A stretch of 64,000 nucleotides of DNA from Owenia fusiformis (lineage: Eukaryota; Annelida; Polychaeta; Sabellida; Oweniidae): contig CAIIXF020000009.1 of assembly GCA_903813345.2 (NCBI GenBank), forward strand, positions 6,566,030 through 6,630,029, written 5' to 3'. The position numbers and the translations under genes were made by a program. A model generated the notes under the pieces. The model saw nothing but the letters and a program-made list of their open reading frames with translations. It was not told the DNA's origin and ran no database searches. How positions within the stretch are numbered: the stretch's first letter is position 1; each line of letters opens with the position of its first letter. Of the stretch, positions 3,301 through 60,940 are shown piece after piece.

Positions 3301-4153
3301 GTTTGGAATCTCATTCAGTTCTGCATCAAAACTTGATAGAGGTAATTTAGAGCATGTCGTCTCAAATGCCAAATTTTCCAGAAAGTCTGTTTTGTGTGTA
3401 TACCCATCATTCAGTTTTCAACTCACATATTGTATATATAAACTTTATCTTTTTCCATCATTGTCTCTGTACCGCTACTGGAGGGTATAGTCCTCAATTG
3501 AAAACCTTGCCAACCAGATTTGTCCCTCCACTGCGCTTCAACTGAACGATTTTCTAAAATACAATTAACTGTTAAACAGTATTATGCAATATTATGTAAC
3601 TATGAAGTCAAATGGGATGCAATGTCTCTTGGAGTACAAGGCATGATATAGTATCTAGGGAGTAAATTTAAATGATAAGAAAAGGCAAGTACTTTTACCA
3701 GCCACATTTATATGATTTCCATTCCGACTCTCCAGGTAGACGGTCTCTGTATAGTTCAAGACTCCCACCACATCGTTCTCTTTGACATCCAAAACAATCT
3801 CTTGATCCCCATTCAGCTGGTCCGCTAGTACAACTTTGCAGGCTGTGACTGGACCTTGTACACTGAGGAACCTACCATTGTACATAGAGCGCAATGACAC
3901 ACGGCCACCTGCATCGATTATGTACAAGGTAGATGTAGGATGTACACAGTAGGATGTAGGATGTACATAGAGAAGAAGAGTAAACCATTCCTTTGAACAT
4001 TTTATGACACGACATGTATCTCATATCCAGCTAAATTCCATATGGTTATACATATCATTCCCCAGAGCCATCTGGATTCGTTTTCTTAATGTGGAGAGCT
4101 ATATCTAGTATACATATTGTACATACCTATCCATAATTCAAGGTCTATTGCTG
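354..4153 (-). CDS. GH53 galactanase-like gene, copy 1; N-terminal anchor exon missing
   Basis: Eight exons are visible: 4127-4153, 3699-3908, 3427-3553, 2594-2709, 2075-2266, 1667-1838, 1133-1266 and 354-907. All have GT-AG borders and lengths and phases matching copies 2 and 3, giving 509 residues before the stop. The first three exons plus 2594-2709 encode a beta-trefoil-like domain (VSLRSMYNGRFLSVQ). The rest is glycoside hydrolase family 53: LRLWVNP, LDFHYSDTWADP, VQVGNEINNG (acid/base Glu) and HIAETTHPYR (nucleophile Glu). This family cuts beta-1,4-galactan. The exon encoding the start and membrane anchor, found in both other copies, is not found upstream, although the flanking DNA aligns with theirs. 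The copy is therefore either a 5'-truncated pseudogene or uses an unseen start. All visible exons are open and the catalytic residues are kept. Confidence 0.82.
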
Positions 4154-4989
4154 CTGTAAGATAACAAAAAGGGATTAAGAATAAAACAAATCAATCAAAA
4201 TATAAAAATGTTTTCTAATTTGAGATTTATCTTATTTGCATAGTAATTTGGTATATTTACCTGCTGTAAAAATGAAAAGAAATGTAGTTAAATAAAGTTT
4301 CAAATACAGAAACAAGACCATGTTTAGAAGTTGATTAAAGGTATAAAAAGTTGGTAACATGAAATGTTTTTTTAAAAATCATTAAATATATAGCATGTAT
4401 GAGATACTAACATATGGAGTTCTATATTTATAAACTATGGTGACATTCTGTTTCATTTCATTTGAATTATCCAACACGAGACACCACAAGGCATATTTGT
4501 GTGGTCTGACAAAGTAACTTTATATCTTAATTCTTAAGGTAGAAACCGCTCCCTGTATTTATCTGCAGGAACTGGTATCTTACTTCTGGCGAACTTATTG
4601 TAGTCTTCATTTTTTGTTGACGGTATTTGATTTTCGGTGGTTGGTGTCTATCTGTTTTAAAGCGGGGCAGAGCGAGGTGCTATTTGGACCTACAGTATAT
4701 ACACACTGATAATTAGATATTTCTACTCTTACCAACTAAAAGTACAAACAATAAATAATAAATGTGTTAATTTCACATATGTAAACAGTGGCGGATCCAG
4801 GAACCAACAGGGGGGGGGGTCCAAATTTTAAGGTTGGAAAAAAATTTTGGGCCCCTAAAACCGAAAAGTGGGCCCAAATTTTGAAAATTTCTCTTTGTTG
4901 ATTACCTATCTCCCCTTGATGATTTTTGTGCTTTTTAAATTTAAAGGCGACTCTATGCATTAACGTCTATTCACTGATGAAAACCTTTT

Positions 4990-8331: not shown

Positions 8332-11300
8332 TTAATAATGATAGCCGGGTTTCATATTGTACACCGATGGATTAACAACACATCCATCCTCGCTATTAAA
8401 ATGTGAAGATGAAACATGAAATTCAGTGTCTCCTGGTTTACACCAGTCTCCTCCCCACCATGTGACAGCAGTAGCCCTTCTCACTGACTTTACGACATTG
8501 ATGAGCCCCTGAGCGTAATCCTGTTGGCCTTGAGCAGTAAACGGAAACTCAGCCGTCTCTGGAAAGCGTAATTTGGGATCCTCAACATGTCGATAGGGGT
8601 GTGTCGTTTCAGCGATATGGATATCATGGTTTTTAAACCGTTCAGACAAGGCTTTAAAATTTGTTTCAAGATTGTTCAAAAAGTACCCAGGATTATATTT
8701 TTGGTAATATGACAAACCGAACACATCAATGAGGTTGATATCCATATGTTTGCCGAGTTCGGTATACCACCAAAGAGCGTTGATAGAGTTGCCAGTGTGC
8801 ATTATGACGTCAACGTCATCTGAAACATGATGTACTGCGTTGATCCCAGCAGTTGCCAGCTTTGTAAATGATTCCCAATTGGCTCCACCTGAAAAGCAAT
8901 ACCAATATGCGTTTTACTTTGTTGCAGGCTTTTTTGAGAAAATGGTTAATTGTTGCTGAAAACAAAATAATGATTTGACGAGGGCCATTTTGTAATAATC
9001 ATGTAGACACCAAAAAGCCAGTTATTTCAGTTTGAGGATCTTTGTTATGCAATATTATTTAAACTGTATGCAAATATATTGAAAATTATGAATGCAAATC
9101 TTTCGCATCATTCAACTTACATTCTTGCCAGAGTTTTCCGCCTTCAATACAGCTCTCATCAGCCTCATGCCACAACATGCCATTGTTTATTTCATTACCA
9201 ACTTGAACGAAAGTGGGCAATGCATTCACTTCACGTAACTGCTCCAAGGTACTTCTAAAAGATATGTAACATTTTAGAATTAAAACATACAAAATGTGTT
9301 CACATTACAAAGAGAAATACCAATCTAAATGTTCTTATGATAATCAACCAAACTAAACCAAGGTTTTCTATACAGGACTTCTCCTTCAGGATCAAGGAAA
9401 TTGAACAAGATGCATTGCGACTTTCTAGAAAACCAAAACGTGTCGTTTCGTTGCCAAGTCTAAAACACTAAAATAATTACTTCCAATTATAACAATAAAA
9501 AGAACAAAGAACCATAGTACTAACAATCAAAATCAACAACAATCTAGACTGTTGCATTTTATATGTTTGAAATCTACCTTGTATATTCATAGACTCTCTG
9601 TACAAGAGCATCGAAGTGAAGAGACCTCCAAGATGGAGGCTTTCTCTGCTTGTTGGGATCTGCCCAATTATCAGAGTAATGGAAATCCAGGACCCACTTC
9701 AGTCCCAAGCTGGTCAGTCTCCGGGCAAGTTGAGACACCCTAGGGAACCCTTAATGAAATCAAACTATACCATAAATCCTTGTGATGGAGGAAGGCAGAC
9801 TCTATGGATTCTATGTAAAAACTACAATGGCATTATGGTCTTATGTCCAATAGGGGTCCAAGATGGCATGAATATACTAGTTAAACCTGTCTTAGTGAAC
9901 ACCTCTCTCTTGTGAACACTGTTCCTAGTGAACCCTCTTTCTCCGCACATACTCCACTGACTTCTGTATAAATTACCCTCTTCACGATCACGTACCTACA
10001 CTGAACACATTTTTGTGGCTCCATATTTGTTCGCTAAACACAGGTTTACAATTCATGCGTTCAACTCAGGTTTGTTTTGAAAAAGTGACCCACCAAGGTA
10101 CGCCTTTTGACGCTTGCCTGTGGTTAATGTTTTTGAGGTCCAACATAGATCCATACAAAAAATAAAGCAGGAAGTCATATAAACGTTACCTGCATATTCC
10201 TCATCGGGTAGGGGGTTAACCCAAAGTCTAAGACGGACTAAATTCCAGTTGTGACTGCGCATTATCTGAAATATATCATCCTGCCACACGTGGGTTGTAT
10301 TTCTGTTGCGATAAAATAAACCACCATTTTCATATGTTGCTGATGAACTTAGGTCTGAGCCCAACCAAAACCACTGGTGATCTGGAAAGAAATGGTTGAA
10401 GTAGCTTATAATGAGTCATCGCAATAGCAATGCTGTATTGTCCCATATACAAGAATGATAGCCGTATGGGACCGATGTGGCTCAAATTGTTTAATGAATA
10501 TAGTACTTTACAGACTCGATGACTATTTCATGAAATCCAGAATATTGTTTGAACATTAATCTTCGATGAAGTTTCAGAAATTAAATTGTTTATCTTATAA
10601 TTGTAATTTATATTAGGATCTAAAGTGGCATAGGATAAGAAACGGCCAGGATATTGAATTATAAAATATTAAAAAGGAGTGGTATCGATATGGAGAACTT
10701 TTTGAACACACGTTTCTCTTAAACAAGTTATGAAAAATACTTTATATACTTTCATCTATATTGTTTTGGAAAACACATCAAACACTTGTTTTGTTCTTAG
10801 TATCATGTTTCCAGAGTGAAATGAAACATCTTTCCGAACATCATTGGAACAAAACGACATAAACACAACATGTTTAAGTCTTTCAATGTAGTAATTGTAC
10901 AAAGGAAATTTTGGTTGATTTAAAAAAAGTATCTTGTTAATGAAATAAAAGGTTTGTCTTGATTTTTATCTATTTTGGGGGGATTTTTTTAACTTTTTGA
11001 ATACATTTTAAAATCAACCAAAAATTTCTTTGTATAACTATAATATTGAGAGGAAGAAAGACTTGGAAGAAAGGAGCAAAAACAATTGCAATAAAAAAAC
11101 CAAAAACGTTAACAAAAACAGTTATATAAAATATTTCTAAATAATTGTCGCATTAAATTGTTGTCAATCAGTCAACATTACATAAAATACCTTGTTTTTT
11201 TACAGAATTTTTTCAATATGATTGGTTTAAGAGAAAAACATTGTTGAATTCAGTTCTCAATATTTTGAACACACGTTTCTCTTAAACAAGTTATGAAAAA

Positions 11301-14271
11301 TACTTTATATACTTTCATCTATATTGTTTTGGAAAACACATCAAACACTTGTTTTGTTCTTAGTATCATGTTTCCAGAGTGAAATGAAACATCTTTCCGA
11401 ACATCATTGGAACAAAACGACATAAACACAACATGTTTAAAATTCTTCCTTTCAAATTCTAAAACTCAATCACACATACTACTCAACCTTAATATCATAT
11501 CCTTCATACGAGAACCACACTTGATATTATTAGTAATTTGTATATTGTCACCGAAGACAATGAGTATCAATATGTTATAATTGAAAAAGATTTCAAGTGC
11601 AAATACTAAATTAATAATTTATATAAAAACGTTTGTTTCAAAAACATTGCTTTCTTCCTTGGAAGAGACATAGAATGGTATTTATGATAACTGAAGTGGT
11701 GTTGATCTGGGTTATCAATGGATTACAGCCACTGATAAGTATTCATTTTTGTTAATTTTTACACATAATTTATCTCATGCTTAGCTGAGTGAATAAGTGA
11801 ATATATTTCAGTTTCATATTCATGCACATGATCTAGACGAAGAGTTAAATTCAGTACATCAAGTGGAAGCCATTTTGTTTTATTCCCTTAATACTAAAAT
11901 AACAGGAAATTCAAATATTTGAATCTAACGCCAAAAATATGTCTAAAAATGTGATTTTTTAAACTCTTCATGGTCCCTAAGTTGTATCTAGTTTTTATTT
12001 CGTACATGCTGCCATTTGTATTATTCATGATAACGGCACTTATGGACTTATGGACACTGATTTTGACTTTCAGCTAAGCACGAGGTAAATTATGTGTCAA
12101 AACTAACAAAAATGAATACTTACATTTTTACATTAATAAATTAACGTGCAAAATGTCACAACCTGCCATTTGTTCCAGATCCCGAGCGCCTACCGCCTGA
12201 CACCACCGTCCACAAAAAAGTTAGAGACTATAACAATATTTCACCAATTGTGGTGGTGACATAAAAAAATATTTCACATACATTTGAACGAGGGGCCAAA
12301 AGGGCATGTTATATCCCTTGGAGTATTTATATGTGTTTTTATACCTGGTTGATGGTGTGCCATTTCAAACATGTAGACAACCTTATTATAGCCTTTCTCA
12401 GTCCATGGTAGACACCTTACCGTTGTATCATCAACAGCTTGGAGGAAGCAATTGAAATATCTGGAATATTATTTCAATAGTTATTCAAAGATTCATGGCA
12501 GTGGTATATTGTATTTATAGTATCCCCAATTAATATAATATATTGTATTGATTAAACCCTGCATGGTTAGGGGAAGGGATATCCATTGCTTTTGTCCGTT
12601 TCTTCTTGTCATTTTGTTTTGCAACACTCTGTGGTCTTCGGTCTTAAAAGTACTTTTAAAGTGCTTACAAGTTACATATGAACTATTTATATGATATACT
12701 GTTACGCTGTATTTGATGTTATGTTTTTGGTATTTATGTGGAGTGAAAGCTGCTTGTTGCTCTCGCATCATTCAACTCACATATTGTATATATAAACTTT
12801 ATCTTTTTCCATCATTGTCTCTGTACCGCTGCTAGAAGGTGCAGTCTTCAGTTGAAATCCTTGCCAACCAGATTTGTCTCTCCATTTAGCTTCAACTGAA
12901 CCCTTTTCTAAATTATAAATACAAACCGGTCTACAGTAACAGTATTATCATGAATTGTATATATTATTTTATCTTCTTTGTAACCTGGTTTACAAAACCC
13001 TATGACATACAGTATCCAAGGAAAATATTTTGTACCTTTAAGTTCATACTTTTAAATCCTCATAATGATATTTTAACATGTTGTTTAAATTAAAGTGAGT
13101 ATGTTTACCAGCCACATTTATGTGATTTCCATTCCGACTCTCCAGGTAGACGGTCTCTGTATAGTTCAAGACTCCAACCACATCGTTCTCTCTGACATCC
13201 AAAACAATCTCTTGGTCCCCATTCAGCTGGTCCGCTAGTACAACTTTGCAGTCTGTGGCTGGACCTTGTACACTGAGGAACCTACCATTGTACATAGAGC
13301 GCAATGAAACACGACCACCTGCAAGTGTTATACAAAGTAGATACGTATATAGGACGAAAGAGAAGAACATACAGTATACTAGTACTGAAGTAAGTATGTT
13401 ATCTTCTTTAAACGTATGAAGAAGGGATATATTCTTTGGAAGAACAAAGGTTTGCAAAAAAATAATCCAAAAATTATATTAGTTGCAACTTACCCATATA
13501 AACTATGAAACAACTGTTATATGATGATTAAAAAGACGTCTTACATCCATTCAAATTATTTTTCTCAAATCAATAGCCATTCGATTTATCGCAAATATTA
13601 TTGTACTTACCTATCCATATTTCAAGGTCTTTTGCTTCTGTAATTCAAATACTAAAAACGATTAGAATAATAGAAATATATTGGAATTTAATACAATCAT
13701 ATTTAACTATATTTGGACAATCTCCCCTTGCTGATTCTTTTGTGTTTTATAGACTATGAGGAAGTATTTTGCGCATGGAATGTTGACTCTGAAACTCATA
13801 TGGATTTTTAGAATGGATTTTATCCCTTGTGTCTTCATGTATTTCAGTTTGTGTCCAGACTGGTACCAATTCTTATGAAAGCTTAGATCTGATTTTGCAA
13901 TGAGGTTAAACATTTCCGAATGTGCATATACTGTTTCGTAGCAATGAAGCAATGTGAATGACATGAAGAGGCAGGTACATGTATAGACGGCAAGAATTCA
14001 ATTACTGCAATTTTCATTAAATTCAATCTTATTTCATGTTTTATGTAGAATACCTACCTGTACGTCCAATTGATCCTTGTCGAAGGGGACTAGGAATATG
14101 GAAATTATTGAAATGTTCTTGAGACCTAAAAATCGTTCTATATAAAGCAAAGCACGATGCTAAAATTATGAGTACCGCCAATATTTTCTCGTACATGGAC
14201 ATCTTATTACGTCGCAATGCCATTTTAAATGACCTTGACATATTGTTGTCGGTGCTTGGATCTGTTATCAT
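8332..14271 (-). CDS. Membrane-anchored beta-trefoil/GH53 galactanase-like protein, copy 2
   Basis: Nine exons: 14058-14271, 13611-13637, 13109-13318, 12781-12907, 12345-12460, 10190-10381, 9578-9749, 9121-9254 and 8332-8888. They total 1749 bases (582 aa) with all phases closing. The start is the ATG at 14271, because the following DPSTDNNM is shared with copy 3. A basic stretch precedes one hydrophobic segment (ILAVLIILASCFALY), predicting a type II membrane protein with a lumenal or extracellular catalytic part. Then come a beta-trefoil-like domain with repeated V-L-x-S-x-x-N-G-x-F/H pattern and a GH53 domain with VQVGNEINNG and HIAETTHPYR. The family hydrolyses beta-1,4-galactan side chains of pectin or arabinogalactan; activity here is inferred. 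The intron after 12345 is long (about 2 kb) and full of repeats. Confidence 0.88.
9884..10046. mobile_element. Pogo/Tigger-like miniature element in an intron of copy 2
   Basis: Ends AACCTGTCTTAGTGAAC and (reverse) AACCTGTGTTTAGCGAAC are inverted repeats flanked by TA on both sides (9882-9883, 10047-10048). Copy 3 carries an empty site at the same place (near 18104). At 163 bp it cannot encode a transposase. The TIR style recalls Tigger/pogo families. Confidence 0.6.
10701..11440. repeat. Identical 177 bp direct repeats flanking about 386 bp
   Basis: Segments 10701-10877 and 11264-11440 appear identical base for base. The DNA between them contains an imperfect inverted repeat of about 45 bp (10878-10925 against 11009-11058). 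The arrangement recalls a tiny LTR-like or nested-insertion structure within the copy 2 intron. No coding capacity is seen. Confidence 0.75.
11737..12122. mobile_element. Miniature inverted-repeat element, about 386 bp
   Basis: The left end AAGTATTCATTTTTGTTA, continuing to GCTTAGCTGA, is matched in reverse at 12070-12122 over about 52 bases. TA lies on both outer sides, which fits a Tc1/mariner-type target duplication. The interior has no open frame. It lies in the intron between copy 2 exons at 12345 and 10381. Confidence 0.6.
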
Positions 14272-16253
14272 TTCATATGTCACTATACACCCCATCTGTG
14301 TACATGTTCATCATTTTATTGCACGATGTGTAACCTTCACAATGTTTCATTTCGTATGCCACCTTGGAATATATTCGTTCACATCCATGTAGGCCTATTC
14401 CTGAATTCAAATGTACACCGTGCATTACACTCTCGTATTCCTATATACCATTAATTACAAGATATATTTCTGTTAATTCGATGTCACTAGTATATATATT
14501 AAGCATATTCTTTTCACTACTATCGCTCAATTCGATATGTTATAAAAATGATATCAGACAAAACTTGGCTGTTCTAAAACCTGCAATAAGGGAAGTTAAT
14601 CTAAAAAGCCAATGTGATTATAATACACAGCTGCACGTTTTAATCTTCTGAATGAATTACTCCCCCTGAAAGGCAGTGTAATAGCCGTTGATCAGCTGTG
14701 GTCACATTTGTCACATTTGCTCCGATTTTCAGGACTGGCACCCACCCGATAAATATTTCGAACCAAATTGGATTCAGTTTTGAACAAAATACTCATCGGC
14801 CAGACGCTGGTGTTGAAGATCGGAGCAAATATGATCACGACATAAGTGTATACACTCAAAATACTATGTCATAAGTGCAATAGTAAACAGATAAGTAAAC
14901 AGGTCACAGTGACTGAACGAGTGAACATTCACAGTACATACATATCACAGACTCAAAAAAACTCTAAATAGTCTATTAACTAGTTTTGAAGCCAAAGCTG
15001 AAGTTTGTTTACAATCCGTTAATGAAATGCAATGAAGATTCTCAATAAAATGGTTTAAACCTTAACTAAAAGACATGTATTATTTAATAAATGATACACG
15101 TATTAATGGTGGTCAAACACAAAGCTAGGCAACATATTGAAAATTTAATACCCCTGTTGGAGGAACAAATTAGAAAATTACTCTATAGAAACACAAAACA
15201 AATTATTTTTATTTTCAGGATTTATTTTCTTTGGTTTGTCAAGGTTATTTCTTGTAAGTTGGTTTTATAAGTATGATATTGCAAACTTTATACGATTAAA
15301 ATCCAAGTGGGCATGTAATGCCTTGTTTATTTATGATTTCAATTGTATTTTAAAGCAGGGTAAGGTGATATTTGGACTTGTCTGCTGAATGATACTCTGC
15401 CCACCAAAACGTACAAGCAATGAATAATGTATATGTTATAATGCTAATGTAATTGAGAAAAAATCAGTTATTTCTCTTTGCTGATTACTTATCTCCCCTT
15501 GATGATTTTTTGTGCTTTATTTTAAAGGCGACTTTTTTTGATCACCTATTCCTTCAAGTCAGATTGGCTGACGAAACAAGCTTTCTTGGTGTTGTCGACC
15601 TGGCTGAGCAGTCAAGCTCTGAGAAAGCCATGCTAGGCTCTGTGTCGTAACAATGAGGTCGTGAGTTCGAGACGCGCGTACTTTAAAAATATAATGTTGT
15701 CTCTGACACGGATTTTGAGACTCGTTTTTTGAAAGAATTCTCAACATTTGAAACGGAATATGCTATATCTTGTATTTACTCGTTGAATATCGGGTAGTAT
15801 TGGGTTTTGTTTACTTATCCGAACACTGGACAAAATCTGGACAAAAATGAAACATTTGTATGACATGAAGTACATATAGGCAGGTATAGACGGTAGGTTT
15901 GATTAGTTTTTTCATATATTTTATGTCCATCCACAATTCATATTTTATATACATTGCACAATTCACATAACAAATGTCAAAGCGTACAAGCAATAAATAT
16001 TGAATAGGCTTAGGTGTTGTTCTATACATTAAAAACGAGTTAAGATTTTTAATGCAAGAGTTGATTCAATATTAGTGTCATCTTTAAGAAAGGCATTTTA
16101 TCCTGACTTATTTACAAGGTTTTACTTACGATCGTGTACATGTATCTCTCGAGTTGTGTGATACGGTAACAAAATTCAGTGTTTAAAATCTAGAATCTAA
16201 ACTGACAAACGTTAACGAATCTTAAAACATATGCCTCAATGTCTGACTCTCTA
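14272..16253. other. Spacer between GH53 copies 2 and 3
   Basis: No gene is recognised. It should hold the promoter of copy 2 (next to 14271); segments aligning upstream of copy 3 (21552-23500) are seen, including AAACAGATAA and the TTGTAAGTTGGTTTTATAAG motif. A tRNA-like SINE fragment lies at 15590-15680. The 3' flank of copy 3 ends the block. Confidence 0.55.
15590..15680 (+). repeat. tRNA-derived SINE-like fragment, better preserved copy
   Basis: An A-box-like TGGCTGAGCAGTC and a B-box-like GAGTTCGAGACGC are spaced as in a class II tRNA with a variable arm. It is the partner of the fragment at 4990-5082, at the same place in the tandem unit, so it predates the duplication. Confidence 0.45.
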
Positions 16254-19200
16254 TTAATAATGATAGCCATGTTTCATATTGTACACAGATGGGTTAACAA
16301 CACATCCATCCTCGCTATCAAAATGTGAAGATGAAACATGAAATTCAGTGTCTCCTGGTCGACACCATTCTCCTCCCCACCATGTGACAGCAGTAGCCCT
16401 CCTCACTGACTTTACGACATTGATGAGCCCCTGAGCGTAATCCTGTTGCCCCTGGGCAGTAAAGGGAAACTCCGCAGTCTCTGGATAGTGTAAATTGGGA
16501 TCCTCAACGTGTCGATAGGGGTGCGTCGTTTCAGCGATATGAATATCATGGTTTTTAAACCGTTCAGACAAGGCTTTAAGATTTGTTTCAAGATTGTTCA
16601 AAAAGTAGCCAGGATTATATTTTTGGTAATATGACAAACCGAACACATCAATGAGGTTGATGTCCATATGTTTGCCGAGTTCGGTGTACCACCACAGAGC
16701 CTTGATAGAACTGCCGACGTTAATCATGATTTCAATGTTCTTTGAAACATGATGTACTGCGTTGATTCCTGCAATTACCAGCTTTGTGAATGAATCCCAG
16801 TTGTTTTCTCCACCTGAAAAACAAAAACCGATCTACGTTTTATTTTGAACTATTGTGGCATGCTCTATTGAGAACATAGTATATTCCTATTTGCGCAAAA
16901 ATTGAGATTCATGTTACACTGCACGATAATGAAGTATTTCCCCAAGAGTGATGTAACCATTCTGGACTCGGTTCGACTTACATTCTAGCCAGAGTTTTCC
17001 GCCTTCAATACAGCTCTGATCAGTCTCGTTATATAACATGCCATTGTTTATTTCATTTCCAACTTGAACGAAAGTGGGCAACGCATTAACTTCACGTAAC
17101 TGTTCCAAGGTAGTTCTAAAACATTAATATGTAACAGTTTAAACTAAAGTACACACAATTTGTTCATATTGCAAGAAGTACCAAACTAAATGCCCTTCTG
17201 ATGATCATCAATTCATATTCAAGTATTTCTATCCATAAGACTTTCCTTCAAGATTAGGGAAACTAGCTGCTCATATGACGTTGCCATTTTCTAGACAACA
17301 CAAGTGTGGCATTTTACCGCCTAGTGTAATATAATACTATTATTAAGTACTATTAATATTATGTAATTAAAACTATTATATATACTATTCTAGTACAATA
17401 ACGTCATTTCTAAAGGCGATATAGTGAAATATTGGACCAAGGGCCGAATATTTCACTATATCGCTCGCAGAAATGACGTTATTAGTATTATTACCACCGT
17501 TAACGACCAGGACTGAAACAGCAAGAAAATCTTACGCATTGAACGATATCTAATTTCCCGGGGAAATTGCCGGTCCAGAATATATTCTAGACCGGTCCAT
17601 ATGGACCACCACTATGACGTCACACATTTCTCAGGTCGATATAGTAAAATAAACGCCTTCTAAACTAGCACTAAAACCCCTAGAACTGGCCCGGCAAGGT
17701 GGTAATAATACTAATTATAACGACAAAAAGAACAAAGAACCATTGCACCAACAATTAAAATCATCAACGGTCGAATACAGTTTGATTATATATTTTTGAA
17801 AGTTACCTAGTATAATCATAGACTCTCTGCACAAGAGCATCAAAGTTAAGAGACCTCCAAGTTGCAGGCTTTCTCTGCTTGCCGGGATCTGCCCAAGTAT
17901 CAGAGTAATGGAAATCCAAAACCCACTTCAGGCCCAAGCTGCTCAGTCTCTGGGCAAGTTGAGATACCATAGAGAAACCTTAATTTAAATCAAAGTATAC
18001 CTTAAGTCGAGCCGATGGAGGAAGACACACTCCGCTGAGTTGGAGTAGATTCAATGTACAAAACGACTATGGCATAATAGACTTAATGTCCAAAAAAGGT
18101 ACATGCTACTAAATCCATGCATTCAACTTGGGTTGGTTTTAAAAATGTCACCCACACAGGTAGATTTTTTGACGCCCTCCCGTGGTTAATGTTTTTGAGG
18201 TCCAACATAGATAATGTTTTTGAGGTCCAACATAAATCCATACAAAAATATAGCAGGAAGCCCTATAAAGTTACCTGCATATTCATCATCGGGTGGGGGA
18301 TTTACCCAAAGTCTAAGACGGACTAAATTCCAGTTGTGACTGCGCATTATCTGAAATATATCATCCTGCCATACATGTGTTGCATTCCCATTGCGATAGA
18401 ATAAACCACCATTTTCATATGTTGGTGCTGCACTTAGGTCTGATCCTAACCAAAACCACTGGTGATCTGAGAAAAAAGAGTATAATAAACCATTGAAATG
18501 GCAATACAATGTCGTCCTTAGGATGATAGGCATATGAGACCGATGGGACTCAGATTGTTTAATGTTATTAGATTTAACAGACCATTTGATGAAATTCAGA
18601 ATAGTTTTGAATAGAAATCTCCAATCGGTTTTCAGATATTAAATTGTTCTTCTTATATTTGTATCGATATTACAATCTCAAATGACATAGAAACTCGGCA
18701 ATGGATAAGTCAGGAAATGTCTCTGGATATCGACATAAAAATATCAAAACATTTTAAAGTCTAAATAGCCAACTCAAGCACACATAAACACCAAACCTTA
18801 ATATTCTATCCTTCTTCCGAGAATCCCAAAATATTAATTTGTGTCTCAATTAATGAGATATCGATATGTTTGAATTGAATGACAATTTAAGTGGAAACAC
18901 AATTGAGTTCCTTTGTAGAGGCATAGAATGCTTTTTCTTGAAGTGTTTTTTTTATCTTGGTTATCAATTGTCACCCAGTTGCGCTGAGCATGCTATTTTG
19001 ACACCTCAATAGTGCCGATAAAGTTGTATATATTTCAGTTGAATTCATGCTTAGCATAGGTTTATGGTTACAATTTGGCAAACAGTTAAAAATAAATACC
19101 CTTAGTGGCAACCATATTGTTTTTCCTCATTTTTACTGAAACACCAGGATATTAAGATATGTGAACACCAAAATATACACATACTATGATATGGTCTTTG

Positions 19201-21551
19201 TTTCTATTTTTATCTCGTACATGCTGTCATATGTATTCTACATGGTAACGACTACTTGTTTTATTTAGGATACTTATTTTAACTCTTAGCAGGACAGTAA
19301 TTAAAAAAATCACATACATTCAATAACAGGGACCACGCGGGCATACTAGTATTATATCCTGACTCATCCTTTGAGTATTAATGTGTGTTACCATACCTGG
19401 TTGATGGTGTGCCATTTCAAATATATAGACAACCTTATTATAGCCTTTCTCGGTCCATGGTAGACACCTTACCGTTGTATCATCAACAGCTTGGAGGAAG
19501 CAATTAAAATATCTGGAATATTATTTCAAGTCATTTAAAAATTCAAATCGTATACATGTACTTGTTTTTGAGGCGATTCCTTCAAAAGTTTGGCTGACTT
19601 TAAAATCATTGCTATTAATGGATATGATGTCACGGTAATACAAGAGATTTATGGTTTGCATATTATTCCTAATCTAAGTATTGGTTATATCTAACATGGT
19701 GAGAGTAGGGGATACTATCCATTGCTTTTTCTCTTTTCTTTTGTTTGATGTAGCACATTTTGGCATTTCCCGTTTAGAAGTACTTTTACTTATGATATGA
19801 AGGTATGTTAGATGTTATGTTTTAGATATTTAATATGTGAAGTTTAGGTTGCTTGTTGTTTTCGCATCGTTCAACTCACATATTATATATATAAACTTTA
19901 TCCTTTTCCATCATTGTTTCTGCACCGCTGCTGGAGGGTGTAGTCCTCAGTTGAAATCCTTGCCAACTAGATTTGTCTCTCAACTTAGCTTCAACTGAAC
20001 CCTTTTCTAAATTATAATAAAAACTCGTCTGCAATAATTTCTTATTATGATACGTACTCATTGCAGGATCCACAGCCTGTGTGATCTCTGGGAGAATGAG
20101 GCATTCTGTTAAGAGGAACTCATACTATATTCTCAATGGCTAAAGTGATAAAATATCGCGTGTATGCCGAACTGCAAAAGATGCTAAAGATGATGATGGA
20201 GAATAATTGCGTAATCTGGCTGACAAGACCGATGAAGCTGACATATTATACATTATAAGAGCATGTTTTGCTCCTTTAAGTTTATATATTTTTTATTTCA
20301 TTTTTCAGATCCTCATGATAAAATCTCAACATGTTGCTTAAATGGAACTAAGTGTTTTTACCAGCCACATTTATATGATTTCCATTCCGACTCTCCAGGT
20401 AAACAGTCTCTGTATAATTCAAGACTCCAACCACATCGTTCTCTTTGACATCCAGAACAATCTCTTGGTCCCCATTCAGCTGGTCAGCTAGAACAACTTT
20501 GCAGGCTGTGGCTGGACCTTGTACACTAAGGAACCTACCATTGTACATAGAGCGCAATGAAACACGACCACCTACAAGAGTTATGAATACGGTAGAGTAG
20601 AGGGTATACATCGAGGACATACGTACATACAGAAGTAAGTATATAGCCAATTATTTAACCTCAACCTCCTTTTACCTTCGGAAGTACACCATTTTACAAA
20701 AGAAAACAAGTCAAATCTATTCTCACACAACTATGAAACTGTTATATGATGGATAAAAAGATGGCTGTCTCACATCCATTTAAATTATTTTTTCTGAAAT
20801 CAGTCGGCATTCATGTGATTAATCTCAATATTTAATATACGTACCTATCCATATCTCAAGGTCTTTTGCCCCTGCAATTTAAATAATAAAAACAATCAAG
20901 ATACAAACAAATTGAAATGTATTACATATTTAATTGTACGCAATATCTAATTCGAAGTTTTGCGCATTGAAGATTTCTATATTTATTTTAATTTGATGTG
21001 TTTCATAAACTATGTGGACGGTTTTCTTTGTTAATGGGATGTTGACTCCATTGGATTTTGTCTAGTTGTCCATCCCAGCTGTCGAGTGTGGACTGGTTTC
21101 GATGTTGCAGTATTGGGTGTTCATCGTAGTCAATAAAATGTTTAACAAAACTGATTCCTCATTCTTTTTTATGATAGGTAAAGTGCTATGATATTACAAT
21201 ATGATTTTATGGTATATTGTATATATATATTGTCCTATCAATGAAGTAACTTGCATAAAGTGAAGTAGGTAGGTATACACACTTGATTTAATCAACTTTT
21301 CATTAAATTCAACCTTATAGCATTTTTTATGTAGACAACCTACCCGTACTTCGAATTGATCCTTGGGGACCAGGAATAACGAAATTATTGATATGTTCTT
21401 GAGATCTGAAGATCGTTCTATATAAAGCAAAGCACGATGCTAAAATTATGAGTACGGCAAATATTTTCTTATACATCTTTTTGCATCGCGATGCCATCTT
21501 AGATAACCTATAAATTAACATATTGTTGTCAGTGCTTGGATCTATTAGCAT
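16254..21551 (-). CDS. Membrane-anchored beta-trefoil/GH53 galactanase-like protein, copy 3
   Basis: Nine exons: 21344-21551, 20845-20871, 20362-20571, 19880-20006, 19397-19512, 18275-18466, 17807-17978, 16982-17115 and 16254-16813. They total 1746 bases (581 aa). The ATG at 21551 opens the same DPSTDNNM start as copy 2. Residues 1-28 are short and basic, and about 29-47 form the anchor (IFAVLIILASCFALYRTIF). About 78-229 form a beta-trefoil-like domain with three repeats (VSLRSMYNGRFLSV, VYLESRNGNHINVA, VYIYNIYFNCFLQA). About 235-570 are GH53. The acid/base is Glu372 (VQVGNE) and the nucleophile Glu490 (HIAET); LDFHYSDTWADPGKQ is a family signature. Exon lengths equal those of copy 2 except the first and last. 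The function is presumed to be galactan cleavage, tethered to a membrane. Confidence 0.9.
17396..17482. repeat. Hairpin in a copy 3 intron
   Basis: AATAACGTCATTTCT, followed by GGCGATATAGTGAAATATT, is mirrored by AATATTTCACTATATCGC and AGAAATGACGTTATT. This gives arms of about 37 bases with few mismatches around a short loop. It abuts the element at 17481-17715. Copies 1 and 2 lack it. Confidence 0.65.
17481..17715. mobile_element. 235 bp miniature element with 18 bp terminal inverted repeats
   Basis: ATTAGTATTATTACCACC at 17481 is exactly inverted at 17698-17715. The similarity weakens inward. There is no coding capacity. It is specific to copy 3, so it inserted after the gene duplication or was lost from the other copies. 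Confidence 0.6.
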
Positions 21552-30200: not shown

Positions 30201-32053
30201 TTATCCTGATTTATTTATGTCTCATTTCAGGACTATAAATATCCTACAATTATACCTTTGATTGGGAAACCATTCATTGGTCAAAGGTTACATCTTAGTG
30301 ACATTGATATTAACGAAATAAGAAAACTCTACAACTGCCAAGGTAAATTAAACACCCAACTTAGGCATTGCATATGACAAATGCAATACTCGTGATTTTA
30401 GATTGTACTTTCGTCAGATTCATATCACCATCCAATACATAATAGAATTATTGTAAATCAAACACACCAATGCTTTGATATGACGACTGTAGAGACCCAT
30501 TGATGACATTAGAGGTAATTCAAGTGGATTTAGGGTATATTGTATATATGAAGAGCTACACATGCCATATATAGATTAAAAACAAAAACACAAACTATAT
30601 CATTATGTATTTACATAGGGGCTGTGTCAGTTGCCTTCACAACACCAGTGTCAACAACGTTTGTACCTACAACTCAACCTGTTCCAATCGGACCCGGTAA
30701 ATATACATTAACTTGTATATGAAAACATTAAAAACAAATAAAGAAAACATAGATTTTCGACCAATTCATTCAAAACTGTCATCCTGTGGTTTTGAACTAA
30801 TGTATCCCAAGACAAAATATGCAGAACTTATTCTTGTAGATGTACCTCTTAAATGGGAGTGCACATTTGACGAGGGCATGTGTGGGTTAGAAAATGTGAC
30901 GGATTATCTAGAATGGATTCCCAAAAGGGGACCAACCCCTAGTTCAAGGACTGGCCCTACAATGGACCACACATCTGGCAATGGTAAGCCTAATATGAAG
31001 AGTGCATTAAAAAGACGACAACGTATCTATCAAATTTTACAGTTTACTAAAATTGGAAGCATATTTCATCCTTAGATAAAGTTCCACAAAACGTCTGCAT
31101 ATAAACTAAGCTCATAAATGTGTCGTAAGGTGCAACATGTACCCTGCTAATAGTGTTTGGAACCTAATTTCCACCATTTTTGCCAAATTCGAGGTTTCTC
31201 TTTCAGAGTTTCCTCGTGACTTCGCTGTGTACTTTTTGTACAATGCAAACTGATACTTATGTTTTATAGTTCATGAAATAATAAAATTAATGAAAATTTG
31301 GGTTCATTATTACAGGGACTTATGTTTACATAGAGGCTTCCAATCTCTATCAAAAGAAATACAGGATGGTAAAACGTAGATTACGCAAAAGAAACACGTG
31401 CGTTGACTTTTGGTACCACATGTATTCTGAGAATGAGGAGGAATCAGATCATCACGTTGGATACTTAAGATTCTATGCAGAATCGGGAAATACTGAACCA
31501 ACACAGTTGCTTGCATGGGAAAAGACAAGATCTCAGGGAAACAAATGGTTGAATGGGAGATTCACGGTTCGAAAGTCAGACTTATCTAGCAAAAGATGGA
31601 ATGTACGTTGAAAAGACCTGTACATAAATGCAGTTAGTTAAACACATGTCTAGGCTACAGAAGTCACCATTGGCGTCCCTGAAACATCTAACACCCCCCT
31701 AGAATATCAAAATTTCTAATTTAACAACCGATCTGTTTCTAGCACTATCAACTTACTTTGAATAAAGCCTTCTTTAGTTCGGAAATATCAACGAATTATC
31801 TACAAAATGGTCCGAAAAAGAAAATGAGGCTTGTATCGACATTGATATCAAGCAATAAGTCGACAAGTCGTTCTGAAGTTATACCGTTTAATGCTTTCTA
31901 GATTGAGTATAATTGATATAGTTTAGGAAAAATACCAATAATATTTTATGATTGTTTACTTTACAGTTGATTATTGAAGGGGAGACCTTGAGCAGCTTCA
32001 AAAGCGATATTGCAGTAGATGATATAAAAGTATATCGAGGGAAATGTCCATGA
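27243..32053 (+). CDS. Astacin (M12A) metalloprotease with MAM domain, gene A
   Basis: Thirteen exons: 27243-27317, 27428-27491, 28096-28152, 28270-28313, 28583-28658, 29225-29360, 29531-29706, 29809-29915, 30231-30342, 30619-30696, 30840-30983, 31316-31602 and 31967-32053. They total 1443 bases (480 aa). A signal peptide (MNTFELVVIFLFIILVPNA) is followed by a short polar propeptide with YEGDI, the aspartate-switch motif (Asp71) that blocks zinc in the zymogen. The catalytic domain starts near [14 protein letters not shown]. Zinc ligands are His179, His183 and His189 with catalytic Glu180 ([12 protein letters not shown]); the Met-turn is SIMHY (Met236). A Thr/Pro linker (about 283-308) leads to the MAM domain (about 312-478). 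It is a secreted endopeptidase; the target is unknown. Confidence 0.93.
27945..27990. repeat. TATTG pentanucleotide microsatellite
   Basis: About eight imperfect units of TATTG/TGTAT lie in intron 2 of astacin gene A. Confidence 0.75.
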
Positions 32054-32128
32054 CGCATCCTGGATGATTGACCCCATTCAGTTGAAGAACAAACTGCCTT
32101 TCAGTCTGCTTACTGAAGAATGACGTAG

Positions 32129-32134
32129 AATAAA
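32129..32134 (+). promoter_or_regulatory. Polyadenylation signal of astacin gene A
   Basis: AATAAA lies 76 bases after the stop codon of gene A, in the expected orientation. Confidence 0.55.
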
Positions 32135-32482
32135 AATGATGATACATCTATTAATTTCATAATCTGACAATCTAGTCTTTGCTTACAAACACTTAAACTG
32201 GATAAATATACACATTAGTTAAAGTATAAGGGAACAGTGGAGTAGATAATGTGTCGAGAAGTTTCCAATATGACAATGATAAAAAAACAAACACATAGGC
32301 TAAGATAAGGATGGGGACATATATGTAAAGAAACGTATTATAGTGTGATTCGTTCTTTAGATAACTAAATGAAGACTTTCCATACCATTCATACTTCATT
32401 TCAATTAAAATACCTCTTCAATACTCATTATCAATTAGAGAGGTCTTAGAATAGTATTATTAATACTTTACTATAATTATTA

Positions 32483-34105
32483 GACTCCAGATTTTCAATC
32501 TGGAGTCTATTGTTTTTGCCTGTTTTCTTATTCTTCTTCTTTTTTTTCTTCCTCCTAACAGATTTTCTCTCTAACTATAACATCTTACTTAATCCAACCT
32601 ACATGGTTGACTAGGGAATGTATCTGGCTTTCTGGGAAATTAGGTCAAATTTTTATCTAGGTCAAAGGTCAAGAACTAGGTCATGTCCTACATTTTCAAC
32701 ATTCTGACATTTATCTTCCTACATGTTTCATCTAACTCCTTCATCTTACTTTCATCAAATAGCTTAGAAAAAGCCCTTTCATAAGTGTGCCATCAGATTT
32801 TTGATTACTCTTACCGATTTTGAGATATGGCGTCCGGAAAGTAGGTCAGAACAAAAAGTTCTCCAAATTCAACATGTGAGTTATGTAATAGAATAGTGTA
32901 GAATAGTGTAGAATAATCTCAGGAATCCGAATCTGCAAACCAAATTTCAATCCGACTTTCGGTTCGGAAGTTATGGCGTTTTGAAAGCTCAAAATCGCTA
33001 AATTTGGTGCCTATGTTAAGTCAATGGGAAAAAAGATTTTTTCGAAGTGTAAAATACAAGATATAGACTTAGTACAGCTTAACATAATGAATGCTTATAA
33101 AAGAAGGGGACCTCAAAAGCTACATAGCTTCAAAATTTGGACACCAAAATGCCTAGGTCAAAATCTAGGTCAAATTCATAGTTTTTCCTTATTTTTACGA
33201 TTCTGACACTACACTTTAATAATTTACTTCAAAATTTTGTATACAGGTAGCAAAGAGTGTGCTAATAGTGCTAGCTTTTTGCCGTCAGAAAGTATTTTGA
33301 CCCACTTTTGAGATATGGTGTCCGAAAAGTAGGTCAAAATAAAAAGTTCTCCAAATTTAACATATGAGCTATGAATTAAGAGTAGAATTTTCCCAGGAAT
33401 CCGAATCTGCAAACCAACTTTCGATCCGACTACCGGTTCGAAAGTTATGGCGTTTTGAAAGCTCAAAAATCGCTAAATTTGGTGCCCCATGTTATGTTAA
33501 TGAGAAAAAGGATTTTTTTGAAGTGTCAAATACCAGATATAGACTGAGTACAGCTTAATATTCTGAAAGCCTATAAAAGGAGGGGACCTCGAAGGCTATC
33601 TAGCTTTAAAATTTGGACGCAAAAATGCCTAGGTCAAAATCTAGGTCAAATTCATAGTTTTTCCTTATTTTTGCGATTCTGACATTACACCTAAATGATT
33701 TGCTTCCAAATTTTGTAGACAGGTAGCAAAGAGTGTGCTAATAGTGTTAGCCTTTTGCCGTCAGAAAGTATTTTGCCCCATTTTTGAGATATGGTGTCCG
33801 AAATGTAGGTCAAAATAAAAAGTTCTCCTAATTTAACGTATGAGTTATGAATTAAGGGTAGATTTTTCTCAGGAATCAGAATCTTTAAAGCAAATTTCAA
33901 TCCAACTTCTGGTTACATAGTTATTGCAGTTTGAAGTCTCGAAAAGTCGATATGATGATTTCCCCAAGTTAAGCCAATGGGGTCGAAGATAACATTCTTA
34001 AGAGTTGTCTAAATGTCTATATTCTAGCTGACTCAGCTTATTCTGGATGACTCAGCTTACAAGTTCTGGATGACTCAGCTTAAAAAAAGTTTGAAATCTG
34101 GAGTC
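32483..34105. mobile_element. 1.6 kb non-autonomous DNA element with internal repeats
   Basis: The ends GACTCCAGATTT and AAATCTGGAGTC are inverted repeats. TTA lies on each side (32480-32482, 34106-34108), the target-duplication type of PIF/Harbinger elements. The left end adds a hairpin, as GACTCCAG is re-inverted at 32499-32507. Inside, a unit of about 480-490 bp recurs, anchored by GAGATATGGYGTCCG at about 32820, 33310 and 33787. No transposase frame is present. Confidence 0.7.
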
Positions 34106-34108
34106 TTA

Positions 34109-35561
34109 AATTGAACTTGTTCAATTTACATGTCTAGTTATAATTAAGCTTTAAGAAAAGTGATGTTGGGAAATGTAAGATTTCACTTTTCATTCATACA
34201 TCTCTATTTACTCCATATTCTGGAAGGTTCTGTAATTTATATGCAAATAGCCTGATTTAGTTGCATAATGATGACTCGAAATGTTCTTAGTGAATTGGTT
34301 AAAAAATCAATATACTGAATTTTATATACAATAAATCAAATGAAACAATCATAGAATGGTGTGTGTTGATGTTAAGTGTAGTAGATTCACAACCGAGCAA
34401 ATTGCAAACTTCTTTATTAGGGTTCGAAACCACCCTGGCAAAATAAGTAATCATAGACACGATATACGTATTTTGATTTGTGTTAATTTGATAACCATTT
34501 TAGTGGAAGAGACAAACATATCCGTCGTCATTATCTGAATTTAAGAGAATAAGTTTTTCAAAAATTAAAATAAGAATCCGCAAAAGAAAAATGATGTTCA
34601 CCATAAAATGATTGATCACATTACCCACAAATAATTTGGCTTCTGAAAACTTTTTTTTCGATTTGAGGCTATTTGATAGAACATATACTATCCTTAAAAT
34701 TAAGAGGCAACACTGATTTCAAGTTTTTCCTCGATTACATGATGCTGGATTGATTGAGGAATTGAGTTTATTAACATAGGCCTTAGGTAAGCGATGTACC
34801 TTTTGTTCCTTTAACAGACAAAAAGTAAGTTGCGTTATTTACTTAATCGGCCACTTGACGACTCGGTGAATACACTGTTTCATTCTACCCTACATGTATA
34901 TTTGGTCCAATGGAAAGACGATGCTAACGTTTGGAGCAGAGTGTAACCAATTCCTAAATTAATTCTAATGTTTAGCTCATCCTGAAAAGTTGAAAACACC
35001 GTTTGATCTTTTGATTATTGTAAAGCCATTCAATTGAATATATCGAGAGGCTTTGAACCGCTTCAGTTTGTTTGAAACTCATGATATACATGTAGTTAAT
35101 AAAGTGATAATTTTTTAATTAAAAATTCAAGGGGTCTCTTTTTTAGGTTCAAGAATAATAAAACATGAAATTCTGCAAAAGTTTCCAAGTAAGAATTAAA
35201 AAAACATTGTGTATATACAGACGTTTAAGTCAGTAGAGCGAGACAAGAGCGTTTATATGTCCATAATAACTATACCGGCGTATGTATAGAACTTACTGTC
35301 ATTAACAGTGTTTTATAACTTGCAAAATATGAAAAACGAACACCCGTTGACAGAGGGCAACAATAACAATTCGCCCATATGGTATCTTAAATTTAAACAG
35401 GCACACTATAAAAAGAGAAATGACGAGTTTAATCAACCTTCAAAAGATAAAAATTCAAGATTTTGATCATAGTCCATTTACAGAGTATCTAAAAATGTTA
35501 CAGTCTCAAGCTAGCTTTACATAAGCCAGTAAGAGAGGCAAATATTTGTATCTTAACTTAG
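34109..35561. other. Gene-free stretch before the ankyrin gene
   Basis: AT-rich DNA with only short unconvincing frames. It ends in the promoter region of the gene at 35562. No repeat structure stood out. Confidence 0.4.
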
Positions 35562-36152
35562 ATGATGGCGGCAGCAAGTGTATGTTGCTCAAATATATTT
35601 GATGCCGCCACAGAAGGACACGTTCAATGTATCAGACATGCGAGTCAAATGCAAACTGATGTAAACACGAGAGATGAAAACTACAAAACAAGCCTAATCA
35701 TCGCGTGTGCAAAGGGCCATAAGGATTGTATCGAATTACTTATTGAAAAAGGAGCTGACATCAATGCAAAAGACAAAGATGGTTGGAATGCTCTCATTAG
35801 CGCAGCGTCCAAGGGGCATCGGGATTGCGTAGAAATCCTTCTAAAACATTCTGTTTTAGACTTGAATGCTACTCAGAATGATAAATGGAGTGCTATTCTA
35901 TTAGCAGGATGTATGGGTGAAGCAGAATGCATGGAGCTCATCCTTAAATCAGGCGGTGATCCTAATAAAACCGATAGTGATGGTGCTACTGCCTTGATTT
36001 GTGCTGCTAATGAAGGACACTTGGAATGTGTTGAAATTCTCTTACGATACAACGCAGATGCGAGTATCAAGGATAGGGCTAATAAAACAGCAATGGATTA
36101 TGCCAAGGACAAGGGAAACAAGGAGTGTATAGAGTTATTGGGATTAATGTAA
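35562..36152 (+). CDS. Intronless ankyrin-repeat protein, 196 aa
   Basis: A single open frame encodes about six ankyrin repeats. The clearest are TSLIIACAKGHKDCIELLIE, NALISAASKGHRDCVEILL and TALICAANEGHLECVEILLR. There is no signal peptide and no other domain, so it is probably a small intracellular binding protein. The frame opens with two Met codons at 35562. An AATAAA at 36356-36361 could end the transcript. Lack of introns beside intron-rich neighbours suggests a retrocopy origin or a naturally intronless family, as for the ankyrin genes at 45372 and 59798. Its partner is unknown. Confidence 0.85.
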   Translation: MMAAASVCCSNIFDAATEGHVQCIRHASQMQTDVNTRDENYKTSLIIACAKGHKDCIELLIEKGADINAKDKDGWNALISAASKGHRDCVEILLKHSVLDLNATQNDKWSAILLAGCMGEAECMELILKSGGDPNKTDSDGATALICAANEGHLECVEILLRYNADASIKDRANKTAMDYAKDKGNKECIELLGLM

Positions 36153-36644
36153 TAATTGTTTTTCATACGAAATACCCACACGCTTTCAGATAATTAACTG
36201 ACTGTTAATGACTTATATTTGTCAGGAGGACGCTTATAGAAAATTAGACAGCATACTACATTTTTCCCAAGCACAGTTACAGATTTATTAATTAATTTCT
36301 TCATATTTATCTTATAGTAATTTGATTTGGGATGTTTTTGCAAATGGTGATTATAAATAAAAATATTATCTCGAATTTATACAAATTAAAATAATCGTGT
36401 GAATCTTTAGATAATTTATTGGTAGATTGTCATACAATCATAAGATATTTGGAGAAAATCATCAAAGTTTGTCAAACTTTTATGAAAAATCAAATTAGAT
36501 TCATATCATAATGCTTTCAAGCTGCATCGTTTTAATTCACCAACTCAATTCGCACCACCATTTTTATTTCAAGTTCATATATTATAACATTTAATATCAT
36601 ACAATGAAAATTCAATAAGGTTAATCAATTTAACTATTTCATCA

Positions 36645-37060
36645 CCAAATCACATCATAAAGTCACATCACCAAGTCACATCATCAAGTCACATCACAAA
36701 GTCATATCATCAAGTCTCATTACGTCACATCACCAAGTCTCATTATCAAGTCACATCATAAATTCACATCGCAAAGTCACATTATCAAGTCACATTTTAA
36801 TGTCACATCATTTAAATCTCATCAAGTCACATTACGTCACATCACCAAGTCTCATTATCAAGTCACATCATAAATTCACATCACATAGTCACATTATCAA
36901 GTCACATTCAATGTCACATCACCAAATCTCATCAAGTCACATTGCAATGTCACATCATCAAGTCACATTACAATGTCATATCACCAGATCTCATCATCAA
37001 GTTACATCGCCAAGTTACATCACCACGTCACATCATGAAGTCCACCAACAATAAGTCACA
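36645..37060. repeat. Minisatellite of CACATCA-type units
   Basis: About 30 imperfect 13-15 base units of the type TCACATCATCAAG run through this stretch, with local higher-order duplication. The block ATTACGTCACATCACCAAG occurs twice about 110 bases apart. The apparent reading frame over it is a by-product of the repeat. Confidence 0.85.
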
Positions 37061-37648
37061 CATTTAACCTTTTTAGCTGAAGTTTTAAACTCAGATCCTG
37101 AACTCAGGACTAAAGGATGCCATGCTATAATATTGTTCGGTTTTGGTATCAAATGGAAGTAAATCTTATATATAAGTATATAAGGACCAATTCGTTCATA
37201 TTAAGAGGTTATATCAATAGGTTGTGAAATATGCTACACACGTATATGTCGTAGTATTTCCATTCATTTATATATTTTCAAATATCCGGGGAAAAACAAA
37301 AATAATGTGAATGCTGGAATGACACCCCATTGAGCTCGAGCATACTATCCACGCATAATGGAGTATTTCAATTAATTGGGTGTACTATTGAGAAGATGAA
37401 AAATAAAACAATGTTGTATTCAATAAAAGTCTGATATTAATAGAACATGAAATCAAATATTTACCAATTAATACGTACGTCATTTTAATTAGTCTATGAG
37501 TGTCATCCAATTATAATCTGGAATTTCTTAGAAAATAGCAATTATCTACCATTCCCATTTTGCACATTCATTTAAAATAGTTTGTGTATACTTCTAACGC
37601 ACATTCTTTTCTTATACCTCGAGAACTCCGACTTAACTTTTCAGGAAA
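37061..37648. other. Spacer upstream of astacin gene B
   Basis: No gene seen. It includes the presumptive promoter of gene B. Confidence 0.4.
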
Positions 37649-44969: not shown

Positions 44970-45371
44970 GTGATGTGTGGATATCCTTGAAATTCTCAAG
45001 CGTACTTTCATGTGTATTTAAACATGCTACATGTATACTAGTTGAGATTTATTTATAGTTGGTTTAAAATAGTTTTATTAGTAGCTTCAATATAGCAAGG
45101 CTACTCCCCACTTCAGCATCTTGTTTAGTATGGTCAATGCTAACAAATAGTTGAATATATGAACATTATGTACGTATACATTATTTACATTTACTACATT
45201 CTACAAACAAATGGGGCTCCGCATGACAAGTTAAGATTAAGAAAGGGTTACGTATTATAATAGAAATGAAGCAACATTGTTATAATACTATGTTCATACA
45301 GATTAGTTTAAAGCTAAGTTGCTTGAATACTAATTCTTCTCAATAATATAATACTTACGTATGAACACAAA

Positions 45372-60444: not shown

Positions 60445-60940
60445 CACCCCAGTCACATTTGTCACACGGCGGCCGCAAGTCGACCGCAGATCAATTAAAT
60501 CGGTGAATTTCTGCGGCAAGCGTAGAAAAACTACGCTCGCCTTGCGGCCTCCGTTCGGCGTATGCAGATTTTTACAGGCCGCAGGGAAGGCGTAGAAATT
60601 ATAACTCGGAGTTATAATATTTGTTCATTTCTGAGGTCCCCGTAGAAATTAACTGGCTCAACAAGCTTAAGATTGAATCATTATTTGTCAATGTTTCACG
60701 ATCACTTTTCATTTGATATTACATCCTAGCACTATGAATAACATTTATAAATTGTCCCGATGTAAATAAAATGAAAAAAGTATTATTTATGAACAGAAAT
60801 TTAAAATTCACCGTGCGGCTGCCATGGGAAATGTGACTGCAAAAGTATGAGAGCGCAGAAATTCCACGGCGAGCGTAGAAATTTTAATGGCCGCAGAAAT
60901 GATAGACTGCAAGGTCGCCGTAGGAAATGTGACTGGGGTG
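60445..60940. mobile_element. PIF/Harbinger-like MITE 2, TAA target duplication
   Basis: The same family and orientation as the element 75 bases upstream (496 bp, same CACCCCAGTCACA ends). TAA lies on both sides (60442-60444, 60941-60943); the intact gene has one TAA at that point. Sequence differences between the two indicate separate insertions rather than a tandem copy. Confidence 0.88.

Follow-up and report, generated by a model that had tools for sequence, protein, structure and literature searches.

The contig CAIIXF020000009.1 of the annelid Owenia fusiformis carries a tandem array of at least four genes of glycoside hydrolase family 53 (GH53), three of which, copies 1, 2 and 3, lie in a stretch of 64,000 nucleotides of the forward strand (positions 6,566,030 to 6,630,029), hereafter called the window, in whose coordinates all features are given unless stated otherwise. 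Their products combine one of two kinds of N-terminus, signal-peptide-like or signal-anchor-like, with an N-terminal domain of 152 residues and a GH53 catalytic domain. The reading that we favour, at about an even chance, is that these genes encode tandem animal galactanases, whose targeting is switched by exon 1 and which digest dietary plant or algal beta-1,4-galactan.

The four copies belong to GH53. Copy 3 matches the PF07745 profile with E 2.7e-70 (237.5 bits, profile positions 3-313 of 340), a score obtained with a draft model of copy 3 in which exon 4 was extended at its 5' side and the micro-exon was missing, the GH53 region being unchanged, and galactanases of known structure in the PDB match the GH53 part with E 3e-34 to 8e-24. 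The assignment to GH53 in the sequence-only reading, an earlier interpretation of this DNA from its letters, is thereby confirmed, as are the two catalytic glutamates noted there, acid/base and nucleophile, which are E354 and E472 in copy 3 and E358 and E475 in copy 2; the corresponding residues of copy 1 are Glu323 and Glu439. In all four copies the acid/base Glu lies in a GNE motif and the nucleophile in ET, at aligned positions. There are 29 columns in which at least 90% of the non-animal GH53 proteins agree; copies 0 to 2 retain all of them, and copy 3 departs at one (conservation near GNEINNGM is inflated by selection, since the bacterial sequences were fetched with patterns including this motif). 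Further residues conserved in the barrel (R, R, H, Y, S, D, W, ADP, Q, P, W, Y) are also kept, with the exception of residue 409 of copy 3, which is Asn in place of the His found in 93% of the compared GH53 proteins and in the other three copies. All animal copies have an extra Cys-bearing segment of eight residues right after the acid/base Glu and a 28-residue C-terminal tail with a Cys.

A GH53 profile search of the 498-Mb genome yielded 12 exon matches in a single minus-strand cluster, resolved into four tandem genes; the search ran exon by exon in a gapped genome, and four is thus the minimal number of copies. Copies 1 (4321-354), 2 (14223-8332) and 3 (21497-16254) are complete and lie inside the window, and copy 0 is situated to the left of it (contig C9, 6560935 to 6556029; window positions -5094 to -10000), also on the minus strand. 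The complete copy 1 and the fourth copy, both with a signal-peptide-like exon 1, are additions to the sequence-only reading, whose reading frames and intron phases for copies 2 and 3 hold in intact genes. Gene models built for all four copies contain nine exons and eight introns, with GT-AG borders throughout and an identical series of intron phases, 1,1,1,2,1,1,2,1. Exon 2, a micro-exon of 27 nucleotides, is kept with its splice sites in each copy, and exon 4 has a common acceptor, TTTAG|AAAAG (TTTAG|AAAAGGG in copy 3). An upstream exon 4 acceptor of copy 3, which adds the stretch EITQAVDPAMSTYHNKK..., ITQAVDPAMS..., was dropped in favour of this acceptor shared by all copies. The spliced copy 3 protein has 563 amino acids. 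In copies 2 and 3 a hydrophobic N-terminal segment is followed by the 152-residue domain and then by the GH53 domain; copies 0 and 1 contain the same two domains but start with a signal-peptide-like exon 1. The exons of the copies in the window are the following.

21344..21497, minus strand: copy 3 exon 1, type II signal-anchor-like N-terminus MASRCKKMYKKIFAVLIILASCFALYRTIFRSQEH... and stem; Kyte-Doolittle (KD) maximum 2.08, N-terminal basic residues
20845..20871, minus strand: copy 3 exon 2, 27-nt micro-exon AKDLEIWIG
20362..20571, minus strand: copy 3 exon 3, first part of the N-terminal domain; ratio of non-synonymous to synonymous substitution rates (dN/dS) 0.04-0.23 among copies
19880..20006, minus strand: copy 3 exon 4, middle part of the N-terminal domain
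19397..19512, minus strand: copy 3 exon 5, last part of the N-terminal domain
18275..18466, minus strand: copy 3 exon 6, start of the GH53 barrel
17807..17978, minus strand: copy 3 exon 7, GH53, DFHYSDTWADP motif
16982..17115, minus strand: copy 3 exon 8, GH53 acid/base Glu354 (GNE) and the Cys-containing insertion
16254..16813, minus strand: copy 3 exon 9, GH53 nucleophile Glu472 (IAET), C-terminal tail and stop
14058..14223, minus strand: copy 2 exon 1, type II signal-anchor-like N-terminus; possible upstream in-frame ATG at 14271
13611..13637, minus strand: copy 2 exon 2, 27-nt micro-exon
13109..13318, minus strand: copy 2 exon 3, first part of the N-terminal domain
12781..12907, minus strand: copy 2 exon 4, middle part of the N-terminal domain
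12345..12460, minus strand: copy 2 exon 5, last part of the N-terminal domain
10190..10381, minus strand: copy 2 exon 6, GH53
9578..9749, minus strand: copy 2 exon 7, GH53
9121..9254, minus strand: copy 2 exon 8, GH53 acid/base Glu358
8332..8888, minus strand: copy 2 exon 9, GH53 nucleophile Glu475, C-terminal tail and stop
4261..4321, minus strand: copy 1 exon 1, signal-peptide-like MVLFLYLKLYLTTFLFIFTA; 90% identical in copy 0
4127..4153, minus strand: copy 1 exon 2, 27-nt micro-exon
3908-3699, 3553-3427 and 2709-2594, minus strand: copy 1 exons 3-5, N-terminal domain
2266-2075, 1838-1667, 1266-1133 and 907-354, minus strand: copy 1 exons 6-9, GH53 with Glu323 and Glu439

The genes are under purifying selection, with dN/dS between copies of 0.04-0.26 for every pair and region tested, that is, in both the N-terminal domain and GH53. 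These values and the structure shared by the four paralogs are far beyond chance. Together with synonymous divergence (dS) of 0.26-0.42 in the GH53 part, they indicate constrained paralogs rather than allelic duplicates. In exon 3 of copies 1 and 2 (3699-3908 and 13109-13318), dS is 0.10 versus 0.28-0.39 elsewhere in the pair, and gene conversion may have occurred across this exon. An intron of copy 3 contains a palindrome at 17397-17483, whose 42-nt arms are 86% complementary and flank a loop of 3 nt; another arm related to it lies at 17625-17651. The palindrome looks like a small hairpin or an element of the miniature inverted-repeat transposable element (MITE) kind.

Two types of exon 1 exist, each kept within its pair of copies. 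Copies 0 and 1 start with MVLFLYLK(L/V)YLT(T)FLFIFTA, resembling a cleavable signal peptide; copies 2 and 3 start with a basic stretch followed by the hydrophobic core AVLIILASCFALY and by RTIFRSQEH. A search of the introns and upstream region of each pair did not turn up the exon 1 type of the other. Over the 22 codons from AVLI to SQEH, copies 2 and 3 differ by four synonymous and no non-synonymous changes, so this stretch is under constraint. All copies have N-glycosylation sequons on the proposed lumenal side; these are present in the N-terminal and catalytic domains, which fits a lumenal or extracellular location. The type II anchor that the sequence-only reading assigned to copies 2 and 3 agrees with hydropathy, charge and codon constraint, from which we infer anchoring as a better reading than cleavage. 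That half of the array is of the secreted type was absent from that reading and bears directly on function: by exchange of exon 1 the array would probably make two forms that are secreted and two that are anchored.

It is possible, though rather unlikely, that both exon 1 types are cleaved signal peptides and that all four enzymes are secreted, none being anchored. With the starts at 21497 and 14223 the core is only about 15 residues long and is followed by the small residues ASCFA, a possible cleavage site, but the in-frame upstream ATGs of copies 3 and 2 (21551 and 14271) would leave some 30 residues ahead of the core, an arrangement unsuited to a cleaved signal, and the lack of amino-acid changes in the core and RTIFRSQEH between these copies also argues against cleavage.

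The N-terminal domain occupies residues 61-212 of copy 3, that is, 79-230 counted from the ATG at 21551, in agreement with the earlier estimate of 78-229. The beta-trefoil of about 150 residues proposed for it, plausible by eye, is neither supported nor refuted here. What makes the trefoil a fair guess is that the domain can be split by eye into three stretches of some 50 residues, each with strand-like pairs (RVSLRS..RFLSV, TVYLES..HINVA and KVYIYN..CFLQA). No significant match was found in Pfam, NCBIfam or PDB sequence searches, none in a comparison with the fascin profile, and no relatives elsewhere in the genome, in viral contigs or in 80 bacterial GH53 loci; lack of sequence similarity to trefoil families does not exclude the fold. 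Weak matches (PDB 4xrp Rnl with E 0.06, SH3, expansin) were below significance and were set aside. A three-way alignment of the domain in each of the four copies, scored against shuffled sequences, gave p 0.026, 0.079, 0.225 and 0.483, hence no significant repeat across them, and the hydrophobicity peak at lag 52 is one among several weak peaks of comparable size. The predicted structure of the exon 3 fragment alone is all-strand at very low confidence (predicted local distance difference test, pLDDT, 42; predicted template modelling score, pTM, 0.20), and a fold search with this model gave no meaningful match.

GH53 enzymes cut beta-1,4-galactan internally with a retaining mechanism. Compared with the endo-beta-1,4-galactanases of this family (fungal 1HJS, 1HJQ and 1FHL, Bacillus YvfO 1R8L, and 7OSK), the Owenia proteins align over the whole catalytic domain and keep the catalytic Glu and the conserved active-site residues, but differ in the anchor or animal signal exon, the unclassified N-terminal domain, the eight-residue Cys insertion, the 28-residue tail and the eight introns. 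In bacterial GH53 proteins, for instance those of Cohnella (L025) and Thermobacillus (L026), accessory sequence is likewise seen by eye ahead of GH53, whereas a detectable relative of the Owenia N-terminal domain occurs in none of the 80 loci. Among animals, excerpts of two papers describe plant-parasitic nematodes (Globodera, Heterodera, Pratylenchus) as using GH53 on arabinogalactan (PMC10899095; PMC4684371); in one of them animals are generally held unable to digest arabinogalactan, these nematodes being the stated exception (PMC10899095). Owenia and the nematodes are alike in having GH53 in an animal genome, and are set apart by the descriptions in these excerpts, where the nematode enzymes are secreted and similar to bacterial GH53 and nothing is said of anchoring or of additional domains at the N-terminus. 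A single fascin-like trefoil domain is joined to a glycosidase in the rice GH5 beta-glucosidase GH5BG and in the bacterial GH16 enzyme LamC, where its removal lowered glucan binding and activity (PMC10858996). The Owenia genes differ from both in the GH family, a trefoil fold of their domain is not proven, and the searches showed no similarity to fascin. LamC provides a trefoil precedent for a binding role of the N-terminal domain. Thus the enzyme type, animal GH53 and the fusion of a trefoil with a glycosidase are known, and the packaging seen here, an array of apparently anchored and apparently secreted forms with an unclassified front domain, was not found described in the open-licence papers searched, where we also met no mention of this N-terminal domain or of a GH53 that is anchored.

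We suggest that the four copies are most likely galactan-digesting or glycan-trimming hydrolases. They would most likely be endo-acting, retaining beta-1,4-galactanases, and the accessory domain of about 150 residues probably helps to bind glycan, keeping the substrate close. Copies 0 and 1 would be secreted to a lumen or the gut, and copies 2 and 3 would be type II membrane proteins, at the cell surface or in the Golgi, whose catalytic domain faces away from the cytosol. The array would most probably serve to digest beta-1,4-galactan of plants or algae in the diet, the anchored forms working at a membrane. Digestion, which we rank first, is backed by the GH53 match, the retained active-site columns, the dN/dS values, the paired exon 1 types, the sequons, and the presence of GH35 beta-galactosidase and GH9 cellulase genes in the genome. 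Several points weigh against it. A search of the genome for a polygalacturonase (GH28) found none, and a complete set for pectin degradation is thus not apparent; the activity of copy 3 may differ owing to Asn409; the Cys insertion after the acid/base residue could alter the substrate; and, should translation start at the downstream ATG, the supposed anchor could instead be a signal peptide that is cut off.

The main rival to digestion, which we consider doubtful though worth weighing, is endogenous processing, in which the anchored copies would be type II enzymes of the Golgi that trim galactans or Gal-beta-1,4-containing glycans made by the animal itself, with the secreted copies acting to remodel mucus, the egg coat or matrix. 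Golgi enzymes typically have type II topology with a short hydrophobic core and a conserved stem, the anchor core has no amino-acid change between copies 2 and 3, and the animal-specific insertion is close to the active site. However, those GH53 enzymes whose activity has been established have beta-1,4-galactan as their substrate, the active-site residues here are ordinary for GH53, and we know of no endogenous substrate in this animal. We put forward just as tentatively an endogenous anchored animal GH53 with an undescribed carbohydrate-binding domain, made by one tandem array in secreted and Golgi or cell-surface versions by exon 1 swap, which would amount to an animal pathway of galactan processing with no tie to plant parasitism. 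Of the two functions named in the sequence-only reading, galactan digestion or glycan sensing at the surface or in the Golgi, digestion is the one we retain. Sensing, by an enzyme turned receptor or lectin with little catalysis, is improbable: the constrained accessory domain (dN/dS 0.04-0.26) and the loss of a widely conserved His in copy 3 would suit it, but all four copies keep the two catalytic Glu and almost every conserved residue of the active site, and the GH53 part is under purifying selection.

The sequence-only reading had also proposed a phylogeny against bacterial and fungal GH53. In a quick maximum-likelihood tree of the four copies with 80 bacterial, three fungal, one archaeal and one further bacterial structure sequence (the kinds of the structure sequences being those we take them to be), the copies form a 100% clade on a long stem of 1.7 changes per column. 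The nearest neighbor, L021, joins them with weak support in what was flagged as a long-branch join, and no close non-animal relative is nested with them among the sampled bacterial, fungal and archaeal sequences. Recent transfer from the sampled groups is therefore unlikely on this tree; since no other animal GH53 was included, old transfer and vertical descent are not separable in it. Astacin and MAM-domain exons lie beyond the array (31294-39785 and 48067-48555), and a fascin exon of the genome matches solved fascins with about E 1e-72; these, together with ankyrin neighbors, identify the host as an animal, and the nine-exon genes among them bear out the intron-rich animal form. Searches for other markers returned neither mitochondrial COX1 nor a molluscan haemocyanin domain nor a hemerythrin match, and C1q matches were few. 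GH53 is mostly bacterial and fungal, but bacterial contamination or recent gene transfer as the source of these genes is very improbable given nine-exon genes on a 38.9-Mb contig beside astacin, MAM and ankyrin genes, the long stem and the lack of a close relative among the sampled sequences.

Elsewhere in the window, two closely similar ankyrin-repeat genes (45327-46244 and 60805-61669) with adjoining MAM-like exons at 48067 and 63335 form an apparent segmental duplication. Long tandem arrays occupy 32818-33935 and 51125-52449, with periods of 476 and about 232 bases.

If these predictions are true, the N-terminal domain would become a candidate for a new kind of carbohydrate-binding module, and Owenia would represent another animal lineage, beyond the plant-parasitic nematodes, that processes galactan with its own enzymes.

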